IMG/VR virus record: IMGVR_UViG_3300044635_002180
Coordinates: 52,216-116,215 of that record
Reading direction: 5' to 3' (one strand)
Length of the DNA stretch: 64,000 nucleotides
Origin: a virus
In this document: one piece after another, positions 30,964-62,310 of the stretch
How positions within the stretch are numbered: position 1 is the stretch's first letter
How the letters are laid out: the number at the start of each line of letters is the position of its first letter
Program-made: the position numbers and the translations under genes
Notes under the pieces: generated by a model
Seen by the model: the letters and a program-made list of their open reading frames with translations, nothing else
What the model was told of the DNA's origin: nothing
Databases searched by the model: none

Positions 30964-30971
30964 TATAAATA
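30964..30971 (+). promoter_or_regulatory. Late promoter, TATAAATA, 6 nt before ATG
   Basis: Plus strand reads TATAAATA-ACTACA-ATG at 30978. Confidence 0.8.
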
Positions 30972-58129: not shown

Positions 58130-59127
58130 TCAACCAAAAAGATCAAATAAATCGGAATACATCTGTTCTGTTGGTTTATGTGCAGGCCACTTAACTGCAG
58201 TATAAAATCTTTCCACCACGGAGAATACAATCTTTTCAAACATTTTCTCGTATGCAGGCTTGAATATGCCATGAAATTCAGTTGGGTAGTAGTATTTAAA
58301 TGCAATGGTCTCTACACCATACTTGTTGGGTGTAGCAATGTACATCCATCTGATTTTATCACCTGACTGAATAGCTTCATATTTTGATATGATGTCAAGC
58401 TTTTTGAGCAATACATTATAGTTGTGAGCAGACTTCACATGCACCGGAGCACCTTTGGGCAATGAAAACTCTTTGGCCTTGCTTGCATGCTTGTCAAGAT
58501 CTTTGATGCCCATGACATATGCTACTTCTTCTGGCTTGAGTGCTTTGAACACATCATATGCTTCATTAACAACAGCATTGGTTTTGATTCTATCGCGTGT
58601 ATCAAGCATTGTTTCAATGATTTTTTTAACGTATGGTTTGATGGCTTTTGGCATAGAAGTTCTCACCACCTCCACACCAACATACTTCCACTTATCACAC
58701 TCAATTCCTTCATCATCCACCACATGTGCAACATATCGCTTCTTTTCTAAAAATAAGCCTTTGTCAATGATGGACTCTCTCTTGAAGACAATTCTAGGAT
58801 CAAGTGAGTTTAGCTCATCTTTGAGCTTGGTATTAATTTGATTGTTTATATAAACATTTAGACCGTCAATAATTTCATGCACCTTGCCATTGACTTTGTT
58901 ATTAATCAACAAAGGTTCATTGTATTTTTTGAGCAGTGGCTCAATGCACAAATACACCGAATCGGTATCACCTGCTACAGCAATATCAGGAAAATTATTA
59001 GTACCTAAAACAGAAGCAGTATATTCTCTTGCTTGAGTTCGAGCAGTCTTAATGATGTACTGACCAGTCAGTGTGATGGATGATGCAATATCATCATCAC
59101 CCAGCGGCGCATTTTTATTGCCCATGT
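58130..59127 (-). CDS. 43: DNA polymerase gp43, C-terminal part (exon after group I intron)
   Basis: Codes palm and thumb of the family B polymerase: MGNKNAPLGDDDIASSITLT follows motif B, motif C is AVAGDTDSVYLC with both catalytic Asp, then KKRYVAHVVDDEGI and the thumb. The frame has no long coding upstream of 59125 and begins directly at the proposed intron end: the two bases 59127-59126 complete a codon whose first base (T, 59368) lies before the intron. After splicing the sequence reads NSVYG-Y-MGNKNAP, which matches NSxYGxxGN of family B enzymes. An ATG at 59125 could give an unspliced fragment without motif B. Confidence 0.85.
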
Positions 59128-59367
59128 CATTTATCTTCTACTTTGCTCGCTAGACAAAATACGCTTTTACGCTGCTATACATCGCTGTATAGATGAGACT
59201 ATATCATCACTAAAAGTGTGCCCCGTTTCGGTATGCTTATACCTACCTGCTTGCGCAGTAGTCGTTGAACGTTCGCAAATTATGCGCTTCGCTGCTGATT
59301 GTCTCAGTGAGAGTTTCCAGCAATTAGAGGCATTTGCTTGCTTTTTACAGCAAGGGGCTAAGAGTCA
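59128..59367 (-). ncRNA. Group I self-splicing intron in the DNA polymerase gene
   Basis: 240 nt with all four conserved core elements in order on the minus strand: P AATTGCTGGAAAC (59313-59325), Q AATCAGCAGCGAAGC (59286-59300), R GTTCAACGACTA (59259-59270), S GATATAGTCT (59196-59205). GACTA in R pairs with TAGTC in S to form P7. The 5' exon end GGGT pairs with GCCC of the intron (59355-59358), giving P1 with the required U-G pair at the splice site; the last base is G (59128). It carries no open frame and interrupts the codon after motif B. This stretch also explains the lack of coding between 59128 and 59367. Confidence 0.9.
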
Positions 59368-59479
59368 ACCCGTATACAGAATTAATAAAAATTTTAATGC
59401 ATAATTGCTTTGCATTTAACTGGGTTATTTTGTCTCTCAGATAGCGTGCTCGCTCCTGTAGTTGTTGTTTGTTTATCAT
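59368..59479 (-). CDS. 43: DNA polymerase gp43, motif B exon (third fragment start)
   Basis: 37 codons plus one base, from ATG at 59477-59479 to the intron. It codes INKQQLQERARYLRDKITQL followed by NAKQLCIKIFINSVYG, the family B motif B (K-x-x-x-N-S-x-Y-G) that contacts incoming dNTP. TATAAA lies 5 nt before the ATG, so an independent start is possible, making a third polymerase polypeptide with the downstream exon. Confidence 0.8.
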
Positions 59480-59529
59480 AAAAATTTATATAGATTAATA
59501 CCTAAAATATAAAAATCAACCACTATAAC

Positions 59530-59537
59530 CATAAATA
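59530..59537 (+). promoter_or_regulatory. Late promoter, CATAAATA, 6 nt before ATG
   Basis: Plus strand reads CATAAATA-CAGTAT-ATG at 59544; opens the plus-strand insert in the polymerase gene. Confidence 0.65.
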
Positions 59538-59543
59538 CAGTAT

Positions 59544-59819
59544 ATGGTCAAGACATTTGAAGTTTAAGCATCTTATAGACGGGCACAATATTATGTTACT
59601 CTGCTTGATTGTGATACGGGGAGTGAGCATTCTAAATTTCTTATAGAATGGATAAAAAAATATAGCTACGCGAAAGATGGTATTATGGATAGAATCCGCT
59701 CAGCTGATTTTAAAACTCCGGTAAGCATGCGAAAATGCAAGAAGAATATTGTCGTTTTAAAAGCTGTAAAGAGGAAGCCTACTGAAGAAGAGTATCTGCA
59801 ATTACTATCACTATTTTAA
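59544..59819 (+). pseudogene. Inserted plus-strand gene with in-frame TAA at codon 8
   Basis: From the ATG the frame reads MVKTFEV, TAA, then stays open for 83 codons (ASYRRAQYYVTLLDCDTGSE ... KAVKRKPTEEEYLQLLSLF) to a stop at 59817-59819. The product would be a basic protein of about 91 aa with no clear family, perhaps an intron- or homing-related factor. It lies between two polymerase fragments and converges with the end of the second one. Either a nonsense mutation or a base error inactivates the start, or translation begins after codon 8. Confidence 0.5.
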
Positions 59820-61073
59820 CTGATCTTCAATATTCTTCAATTCCTTTTTAAGCTTCATCATTTCCTTGCGAACAGCAACACGCTCTTTGTAATATTCATC
59901 TACAATCTCTGGTAGAATTCCTTTGACTTTTTGGCTAAACAAAACCTTGGCTTTGGTTATGGCAATTTTTTCCTGATTTACAAATTGTGCAAACTTAGCC
60001 AGTGGCAAGTTAAAAACCTGACCATTGATGTGTTTGATGGTTACACTTTTATCATCTGTATCAATGATGTTACCTACCTTTGTCTCTGGAGACAAATTGA
60101 GACTAATCATGATGTTGGGGTACAGTGAATTAGCATCAAAAGATACAACATTGCTTTGAAAGCCCTCCATGGGCTCTGCAACAAATGCACCCGGATTTTT
60201 ATCACCTTCACCATCACGAACAAATGTAGGCAAGAATTGTGATCTTTGACGAGCACGAATGGCAGCAGTTCCTGTGATTGTAGACAAGGTGCTCATTGCA
60301 TTTTCCATGGTGGTCAGGCCCATGTAAGCCAACATTCTCAGCAGTGGTACATACTGCAATTTTAAATCCATCTTCACAAGCAGTGCAACGTCTTGCAAGT
60401 TATAATCTACAAACAATTGCCAATCTTCTTTTGCTAAGCTTGCAAGATTGGTATTGCCATAATCAACCTTTCTCTCACCCAGTTCAAGTTCTGCAATGTA
60501 ATCGAGTTTATAGCTCTCGCGGTTTGTAAAGCTAAAACGCTTGTAAATATCAATGTAATCAACGCATGAAACTCCGTCAATGTACCAGCGGATTTGCGGC
60601 TTGCCAAATATGCCGCTGTTGAGAGTTCTACAATACACTCTACCAACAGGTGAAAGCTTTGATGAATACTCTTCACTCAAAATATTATTGATTCTGTTGA
60701 TGATGTATGGAATATCAAACCCTGCACTATTCCAACCTGTCAACAAGTCACATTCCAAGCTGCTGAAGAACTCTATAAAATTCACCAACAGTTGGCGCTC
60801 TGTTGCACAATGAACAAACTTCAAGTCACTTCTGTTGTGTTTATAATCAGTTGTACCCCAAGAGAAAAACTGATTGGTCAAACTGTCATGAATGGTAATA
60901 ATGTTGATGGGATGCTTAGCATATTCAGCTGCAGGAAACTCTGTTTGCTGAACATAACAACTGTTATCATAATTAACCCACTGCTGTTTCTCCTCATCCC
61001 ACACTTCATATTCTTCTCGCATATTTTTATTACACGCGAAATCACCCAATTTGATATACTGATACTGTTCCAT
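59811..61073 (-). CDS. 43: DNA polymerase gp43, exonuclease and palm part (second fragment)
   Basis: 420 aa. Contains Exo II (LTGWNSAGFDIPYIINRINN), Exo III (LFVDYNLQDVALLVKMD) and polymerase motif A (VVSFDANSLYPNIMISLNLS), and ends in the fingers helix (RKEMMKLKKELKNIEDQLK) with TAG at 59811. Motif B follows only 330 nt later in the next fragment. At the N-terminus, FPAAEYAKHPINIITIHDSL continues the exonuclease fold begun in the fragment at 61903. Start is ATG 5 nt after the HNH gene stop; no promoter octamer is seen, so it is read with the HNH gene. Confidence 0.9.
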   Translation of the reverse strand: MEQYQYIKLGDFACNKNMREEYEVWDEEKQQWVNYDNSCYVQQTEFPAAEYAKHPINIITIHDSLTNQFFSWGTTDYKHNRSDLKFVHCATERQLLVNFIEFFSSLECDLLTGWNSAGFDIPYIINRINNILSEEYSSKLSPVGRVYCRTLNSGIFGKPQIRWYIDGVSCVDYIDIYKRFSFTNRESYKLDYIAELELGERKVDYGNTNLASLAKEDWQLFVDYNLQDVALLVKMDLKLQYVPLLRMLAYMGLTTMENAMSTLSTITGTAAIRARQRSQFLPTFVRDGEGDKNPGAFVAEPMEGFQSNVVSFDANSLYPNIMISLNLSPETKVGNIIDTDDKSVTIKHINGQVFNLPLAKFAQFVNQEKIAITKAKVLFSQKVKGILPEIVDEYYKERVAVRKEMMKLKKELKNIEDQLK

Positions 61074-61075
61074 AG

Positions 61076-61888
61076 TTATTTGTTGCGCAGGTTTAAAATT
61101 CTTGTTCGTACTTTTGATGATTTTGAATTAATATAGTTTTCAAACTCTTGATCAGACATACACTTAATACGAACTTTCATAATTGACTGTTGCCGTGTCG
61201 CTTTTCCCTTTTTATTATTTGATATATTAATACTTCTCACGGCATGATCAACACATGTTGAATGTAAACTCTTGTTAAGTCGTTGTTGCTTTTCAGCAAC
61301 ATCTAATCCGTTTATATATTCTTTTATTTTTTTAGATCGTTTTAAATTAGATTCTTCACTTTGAATACATCCGCGCCTTGATTGAAAAAAACATTCACGA
61401 CTACACATTGTAGCATATCTTGTTTTCACACGCCTACCACAGTTGTTTCCACATAAAGGCATAGTCATTAATCTCTGCATCTTATTGTGACTGCCACGGA
61501 TTTTTAATTTTTCTGATACTACAGTTTTAATATAATCACTTTTCATAGGGTGATTTTTTGAAAACAACTCTCTAGCACACTTGAATAGCTTTGCATTTAT
61601 TTTTCGCTTATCACTATTATGTGTACACATTCTATTAAATGCAGCTGATAATTTCATAGCTCTTGCAGTGTAAGTAACATCCGCTTCTGCAAGTTTTTGA
61701 TAACCCACTGCTAGGAGGTGATGTAAAACAAAATGCTCTTTTGCTGTAACTTTAACAATATTATCAGCTATATCATTACCACCAAGACACTTGGGTAATA
61801 CATGGTGTCTCTCACAATAGATGCTTTCATCTAAGCATCTGTTTTGGCAATTTATAATAATTTTATCATATACTTTTAAGTAGTTCAT
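61076..61888 (-). CDS. HNH homing endonuclease inside the polymerase gene
   Basis: 270 aa. The HNH motif is YCERHHVLPKCLGGNDIADN followed by IVKVTAKEHFVLHHLL (H-H ... N ... H). A zinc-like Cys cluster (CGNNCGRRV ... CSRECFF) and a basic C-terminus bind DNA. It fills the space between the first and second polymerase fragments and has its own late promoter 5 nt before the ATG, so it is a freestanding homing gene. It has no space for a group I intron core, so the polymerase here is probably split, not spliced, as reported for Aeromonas T4-like phages with 43A/43B. Confidence 0.85.
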   Translation of the reverse strand: MNYLKVYDKIIINCQNRCLDESIYCERHHVLPKCLGGNDIADNIVKVTAKEHFVLHHLLAVGYQKLAEADVTYTARAMKLSAAFNRMCTHNSDKRKINAKLFKCARELFSKNHPMKSDYIKTVVSEKLKIRGSHNKMQRLMTMPLCGNNCGRRVKTRYATMCSRECFFQSRRGCIQSEESNLKRSKKIKEYINGLDVAEKQQRLNKSLHSTCVDHAVRSINISNNKKGKATRQQSIMKVRIKCMSDQEFENYINSKSSKVRTRILNLRNK

Positions 61889-61893
61889 AGGAG

Positions 61894-61901
61894 TATTTAT
61901 C
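61894..61901 (-). promoter_or_regulatory. Late promoter, GATAAATA, 5 nt before ATG
   Basis: Minus strand reads GATAAATA-CTCCT-ATG at 61888, directly behind the stop codon of polymerase fragment 1. Confidence 0.75.
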
Positions 61902-61902
61902 T

Positions 61903-62310
61903 CTATGTCGACCTTTTTTTGCGTATTTTAATCTGATTATCATTTTTATACTTGCTTGTATCCACCTCAATGTCAATCGTAACAACACGCACCGGAAATT
62001 TAGCAAAATCCTCATCCTGGTTGTGTTGCCAAAACATATCAATGAGGTGTTGCTGCACTGGATTAATATTTTCAAACAATCTCTTGCTTCCACACTCTTT
62101 GACAAATCTGCTGCGATCAAATTGTGTCTTGAACGTACGTTTGCGCAATTTGGTATTAAAGATGCTCACATCTTTGCCAGACATATCCTCAAGCATGAGA
62201 TAAGGCTGGTAAGAACTCATGTACGAAATTCTATTACCATTCTCATCCCATGAATATATCTTCATACATTCATCCTGCGGAATATAAACTGCATTTCTGT
62301 ATCCTATCAT
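61903..62310 (-). CDS. 43: DNA polymerase gp43, N-terminal fragment
   Basis: 135 aa from the ATG at 62308-62310 (start IGYRNAVYIPQDECMKIYSW). It includes the N-terminal domain (KTQFDRSRFVKECGSKRLFE, NPVQQHLIDMFW) and Exo I (VRVVTIDIEVD) with the catalytic D and E, then ends with IKIRKKRST and TAG. It must associate with the second fragment to form the exonuclease site. The break lies shortly after Exo I, close to a metal-binding motif, a usual place for homing endonuclease insertion. Confidence 0.85.
   Translation of the reverse strand: MIGYRNAVYIPQDECMKIYSWDENGNRISYMSSYQPYLMLEDMSGKDVSIFNTKLRKRTFKTQFDRSRFVKECGSKRLFENINPVQQHLIDMFWQHNQDEDFAKFPVRVVTIDIEVDTSKYKNDNQIKIRKKRST

Follow-up and report, generated by a model that had tools for sequence, protein, structure and literature searches.

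The window, by which we mean the whole 64,000-nt stretch of viral DNA that was analysed, carries a gene 43 in pieces. Read from the 5' end of the gene, the features of the locus are as follows.

58130-62310, minus strand: gene 43 locus, T4-type family B DNA polymerase with three interruptions
61903-62310, minus strand: gp43 part N, 135 aa, with the N-terminal domain, the Exo I strand (IDIEV) and ~16 residues that open the exonuclease loop (DTSKYKNDNQIKIRKK)
61903-61905, minus strand: stop codon of part N
61894-61901, minus strand: predicted T4-type late promoter GATAAATA, 5 nt ahead of the HNH ATG
61076-61888, minus strand: freestanding HNH homing-endonuclease gene, 270 aa, within the exonuclease loop
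60942-61073, minus strand: second half of the long loop (MEQYQYIKLGDFACNKNMREEYEVWDEEKQQWVNYDNSCYVQQT), not in the uninterrupted allele L005
59811-61073, minus strand: gp43 part M, 420 aa, whose residues 1-44 form the second half of the loop, followed by Exo II, Exo III, motif A and the first fingers helix
59480-59810: fingers insert, 331 nt, holding a plus-strand remnant
59530-59819, plus strand: decayed antisense homing-endonuclease gene (HEG), probably of GIY-YIG type, with intact counterparts in alleles L006 and L007
59530-59537, plus strand: predicted late promoter of the remnant, CATAAATA, with an ATG at 59544
59479 to 58130, minus strand: gp43 part C, containing a group I intron
59368-59479, minus strand: part C exon 1, with a new start codon, the second fingers helix and motif B (KIFINSVYG)
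59128-59367, minus strand: ORF-less group I intron, 240 nt, from Rfam and the empty site of L005
58130-59127, minus strand: part C exon 2, with motif C (GDTDSVYL), the thumb and the C terminus

The 135 residues of part N are counted from an ATG; the ORF list starts this part at a TTG, 62319. As the first-pass annotation had reported, translation reveals all the polymerase motifs in the right order, with Exo I (IDIE) in the first part, Exo II (TGWNSAGFD), Exo III (YNLQD) and motif A (DANSLYP) in the second, and motifs B (KIFINSVYG) and C (GDTDS) in the third, motif B ending 1 nt ahead of the 5' splice site. Parts M and C both match PolB (Pfam, PHROG 262), which together with the ordered motifs Exo I-III, A, B and C places the protein among the T4-type gp43s, and a profile of relatives matches RB69 gp43 with an E value of 7e-180. 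No internal stop or frameshift occurs in the ORF translation of any piece. ORFs, Rfam and comparison with an empty allele all support the claim of three true interruptions of one gene, at every coordinate originally given for them.

That empty allele, L005, lies on a viral contig; its protein is 99% identical, its gp43 is unbroken at 852 aa, and it shows every empty site. Where the window has IDIEV, the intervening sequence and then EFPAAE, L005 reads IDIEV-YSPD-EFPAAE, and the window has in addition a new stop and a new start in the fingers. Because L005 has the same gene as a single 852-aa frame, the split structure is not a product of chance. The first 119 residues of part N are 99% identical to L005; part M is 95% identical to L006, and its residues 45-410 are 99.7% identical to L005. 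The window structure is also found in L004, which comes from a different assembly and is 99.98% identical over 8.2 kb (2 mismatches in 8187 nt), so the structure is not an artefact of the assembly of one contig.

A search of the 116-kb record returned a single PolB and no PolA. This record is a genome fragment (116 kb compared with 204-225 kb for relatives), and if those relatives are a guide it covers about half of the genome. Replication could then depend on another polymerase in the missing part, with gene 43 persisting as a relic. We regard this as highly improbable, since the 204-kb and 225-kb relatives each have one PolB locus and no PolA, and the pieces of gene 43 are under purifying selection.

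The interruption in motif B is a group I intron. Rfam model RF00028 matches positions 59175-59377 of the minus strand over its whole length (81.6 bits, E 3.5e-19), including the GUUCAACGACUA...GAUAUAGUC core, and alignment to L005 defines a precise empty site that reproduces the proposed bounds of 59128-59367 exactly. The intron is flanked by ...TACGGGT in the 5' exon and ACATGGGC... in the 3' exon, and its excision rejoins NSVYG-Y-MGNKN in frame, giving an in-frame 43B. The alleles that carry it, namely those of the window, L006 and L007, are exactly the ones with the antisense HEG, whereas L005 and L008-L013 lack it. Intron identity between the window and L006 is 98.8%, and ~5 sites distinguish their spacers between the HEG start and 43B, although half of the synonymous positions in the adjacent exons differ. 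A putative recent transfer of intron and spacer together explains this high identity, and constraint on the intron RNA could account for part of the intron similarity. Collaborative homing of the intron by the neighbouring fingers HEG is the natural suggestion. The thermodynamic folding of the intron is unexceptional (z -1.3), and a scan with a 15-mer intron pattern gave 41 loci, known ones aside about the number expected by chance, with only weak further matches.

The fingers insert was correctly positioned at 59480-59810 by the first-pass annotation, which left its nature unidentified; comparison with L006 and L007 identifies it as the remnant of a dead antisense HEG. Both of these alleles have an intact 293-aa ORF at the same site and in the same orientation, to which the remnant is 85% (L006) and 56% (L007) identical; the M piece of L007 is 77% identical to that of the window. 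The remnant reads from its ATG at 59544 through 7 codons to a stop, and then through the last 82 codons (59571-59816) and a stop, with ~609 nt deleted at a GCAT repeat. The GIY-YIG family name is probable for the 293-aa ORF, which in L006 and L007 contains the motif VYAYLDP...KPVYIGRG and is 33% identical (E 8e-16) to a Bacillus phage Mater protein annotated as belonging to the GIY-YIG superfamily. Its match to Pfam LEM-3_GIY-YIG lies below the cut-off (E 0.0085), its AlphaFold model is poor (pLDDT 44), and the window copy has lost the GIY-YIG domain. The stop codon of part M falls within the insert, and the window, L006 and L007 all keep the stop of the upstream cistron and the ATG of the downstream cistron, while the surrounding sequences differ. 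Between the window and L006, both of which are split in the fingers, dN/dS is 0.030 for the M piece and 0.036 for the C piece. Purifying selection thus acts on both sides of the split and, together with the retained stop and ATG, speaks for two working cistrons.

The interruption after Exo I is formed by a freestanding gene at 61076-61888, as had been proposed, though it is not a simple break in the exonuclease domain. The gene matches the homing endonuclease family phrog_655 of PHROG (E 1.1e-31), retains intact HH...N...H residues (ERHHVLPK...EHFVLHH) and is missing from L005, L006, L007 and L008-L013, which marks it as a freestanding HNH homing endonuclease. On either side of it are residues with no counterpart in L005, ~16 after IDIEV and 44 ahead of EFPAAE. 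These initially looked orphan, and we considered them as meaningless read-through; this was ruled out by an uninterrupted long-loop gp43 of the form LDIEVDTHIYHADKIVKVRLKGSKSEEKMSLGELRAKKDIESYEVLNDQEQIWTPYYISIYTKTEFPE in three contigs found by scanning with the N piece (L163-L165), and by the cultured Stenotrophomonas phage Mendera, which has the same kind of loop without interruption. The second half of the loop with its flank aligns to L163 at 40% identity (E 4e-20), and the first half aligns as well (E 6e-5). On these comparisons the HNH gene sits inside a natural exonuclease loop of variable length, at a site equivalent to RB69 residues ~118-122, directly past D114/E116. Since close relatives have short loops, the loop and the HNH gene probably arrived together. 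Of the 12 differences in 1099 nt that separate the M pieces of the window and L005, four fall in the first ~40 nt past the loop (P ~7e-4), a cluster of the kind that co-conversion would leave.

Long-loop gp43s, in which the stretch from Exo I to Exo II is longer by ~55 residues, are exemplified by L163:4001-6730 and L190:3180-5858, and occur in freshwater-type contigs and Stenotrophomonas phages. Our literature searches turned up no account of what this loop insertion does.

Introns and inteins often house HEGs, and the sibling allele L007 has a split intein in this very gene. It could therefore be that the HNH region is removed as RNA, by an undetected intron, or as protein, by an intein, leaving N and M as one chain. 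This is very unlikely. No intron family scores in the region even with a permissive Rfam search, and we rejected the intron on this ground; the part of the insert that is not HNH is homologous to polymerase protein rather than to an intron. We likewise rejected an intein, because Pfam gave no intein match to N, M or the HNH protein, and intein splicing blocks were seen in L007 only. Furthermore, the HNH gene resembles the freestanding HEGs of T4 in having a promoter and a start of its own.

Transcription and translation signals at the locus follow the habits of this phage. In 17 window ORFs of at least 80 aa the ATG is preceded at 5-7 nt by the T4-type late motif NATAAATA, in 13 of the 17 at exactly 5 nt (examples are at 30964, 13383, 13999, 61901 and 59530), and both HEG starts, HNH and fingers, are preceded by it at the phage's own spacing of 5-6 nt. 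At 5-7 nt, the usual start of late transcription would fall on the ATG, which suggests leaderless late messages. The window has 39 ATG-start ORFs of at least 200 aa, and an SD-like tetramer (AGGA, GGAG or GAGG) is absent from the 18 nt upstream of every one, so the lack of such a site at the internal starts of gene 43 is normal here. Shine-Dalgarno sites seem not to be used by this phage, and at a guess its host may be of the Bacteroidota kind.

Only one haplotype, that of the window and L004, carries the HNH split, so the function of this split is inferred. That single haplotype, and the coexistence of an intact allele as close as L005, would also fit a recent knock-out, in which the HNH insertion has cost the exonuclease and N part or killed the polymerase, and the phage survives through co-infection or recombination with L005-like alleles. 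We think this unlikely. The pieces have neither frameshifts nor extra stops, two assemblies share the structure, with 2 mismatches along 8.2 kb, and the insertion lies in a loop that tolerates ~55-60 extra residues. Moreover, nearly all the differences from L005 in the N, M and C pieces are synonymous, with a dN/dS of 0.013 for N. The loop location suggests that a split of the exonuclease domain would be tolerated. In an AlphaFold model of the M piece as a monomer (mean pLDDT 75.7), loop residues 1-29 have low confidence and residues 31-39 form a strand.

The best explanation of these findings, to which we assign a probability of about 0.72, is that gene 43 has been colonised by three mobile elements and that its pieces re-associate into a working enzyme. 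The group I intron would remove itself from the RNA and so join motif B in frame. The fingers insert would have begun as an antisense freestanding HEG of GIY-YIG type whose nuclease part was later deleted, and its remnant would still hold the gene apart as 43A-type and 43B-type cistrons. The HNH gene would be expressed late, from its own promoter, and the long loop probably accompanied it from a long-loop gp43 through homing-linked co-conversion. The predicted products, N (~135 aa), M (420 aa) and spliced C (~369 aa), would then re-associate non-covalently into a polymerase-exonuclease. The anatomy of the locus, its empty sites, the identity of the remnant, the frame restored by removing the intron and the purifying selection among fingers-split alleles are computed results; splicing in vivo, three separate translation products, and their assembly and activity are what we infer. 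The earlier suggestion of separate translation and RNA splicing is supported as the likely mode; of the two or three polypeptides then envisaged, three is the expected number. It is reasonably probable that the result is a three-polypeptide family B polymerase with a proofreading site made of two chains (Exo I on one, Exo II and Exo III on the other), split fingers and a spliced motif B.

Part of this organization has a precedent. Aeromonas phage 25 (Petrov, Ratnayaka and Karam 2010, through PMC2988022 and PMC2993671) has a 43A gene, a GIY-YIG gene and a 43B gene whose group IA2 intron lacks an ORF (PMC2993671); its 43A and 43B proteins co-purify and polymerise DNA (PMC2988022), and its intron is predicted to depend on a freestanding HEG. 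The window likewise is split in the fingers into two cistrons, with the remnant of a probable GIY-YIG-type gene at the split, and motif B of its second cistron contains a group I intron without an ORF. However, the HEG of phage 25 is in sense orientation and intact whereas that of the window is antisense and decayed, the two intron sites are 4 nt apart, and phage 25 lacks an HNH gene in the exonuclease domain. No homology was detectable between the two HEGs. The arrangement of two of the three interruptions has thus been published before, and may have recurred through convergence. Cyanophages S-CREM2 and S-H34 (PHROG families 2062 and 1918) have the same split point in the fingers, with proteins of ~490 aa and 367 aa; in these the separator is a small hypothetical ORF, with no annotated intron and no exonuclease split. 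The first-pass annotation knew of no three-part gene with an intron in motif B. In view of phage 25, its fingers split and motif-B intron are not new together; the HNH split, which places Exo I and Exo II/III on different polypeptides, is. We found no precedent for an exonuclease split in the literature, nor a three-part phage polymerase, the latter absence being weak evidence because most subscription papers lay outside the coverage of the search. The antisense decaying HEG and the motif-C split intein of L007 are also new variants.

Other essential genes have been divided by freestanding HEGs. PMC2988022 describes two cases in which the separately translated pieces re-associate, nrdA of Aeh1, interrupted by mobE, and gene 39/60 of T4, interrupted by mobA; these are other genes, with one split each. 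Collaborative or trans homing, the pairing of an HEG-less intron with a freestanding HEG close by (Bonocora and Shub 2009 and Zeng et al. 2009, cited in PMC2988022 and PMC10448857), resembles the present case in that the intron and the fingers HEG occur together in the window lineage, L006 and L007 and are both missing from uninterrupted alleles. It differs in that the HEG copy of the window is dead and that of L006 and L007 is a candidate only. The allele series would be useful for testing collaborative homing of an ORF-less intron by a neighbouring HEG, and L005, L006, L007 and the window form a series from empty through half-loaded to fully loaded that bears on how essential enzymes absorb mobile elements. 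In the window, the division of gp43 by HEGs goes beyond the known two polypeptides to a predicted three, and one split reaches the exonuclease active site, at a loop already found lengthened in nature. A polymerase reconstituted from three pieces might also find practical application as a split enzyme.

Split inteins in fractured genes (Dassa et al. 2009, cited in PMC10448857) have a parallel in sibling L007, in motif C, and none in the window. At L007:6417-8925 the intein interrupts GDTD/SVVADAV...VHN/SVYL, its IntN and IntC separated by a 332-aa endonuclease-like ORF with a weak match to MTES_1575/DUF559 (restriction-like nuclease), for which a search for relatives gave nothing useful. With the antisense HEG, the intron and the split intein, gene 43 of L007 is in at least three pieces.

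Finally, a run of seven A residues (CGCAAAAAAAGG) at 61906-61925 lies just ahead of the part N stop. With one A fewer, the frame would continue as KKGRHRDKYSYELLKSI before a stop; the run could reflect slippage, an assembly error or a decayed loop codon.
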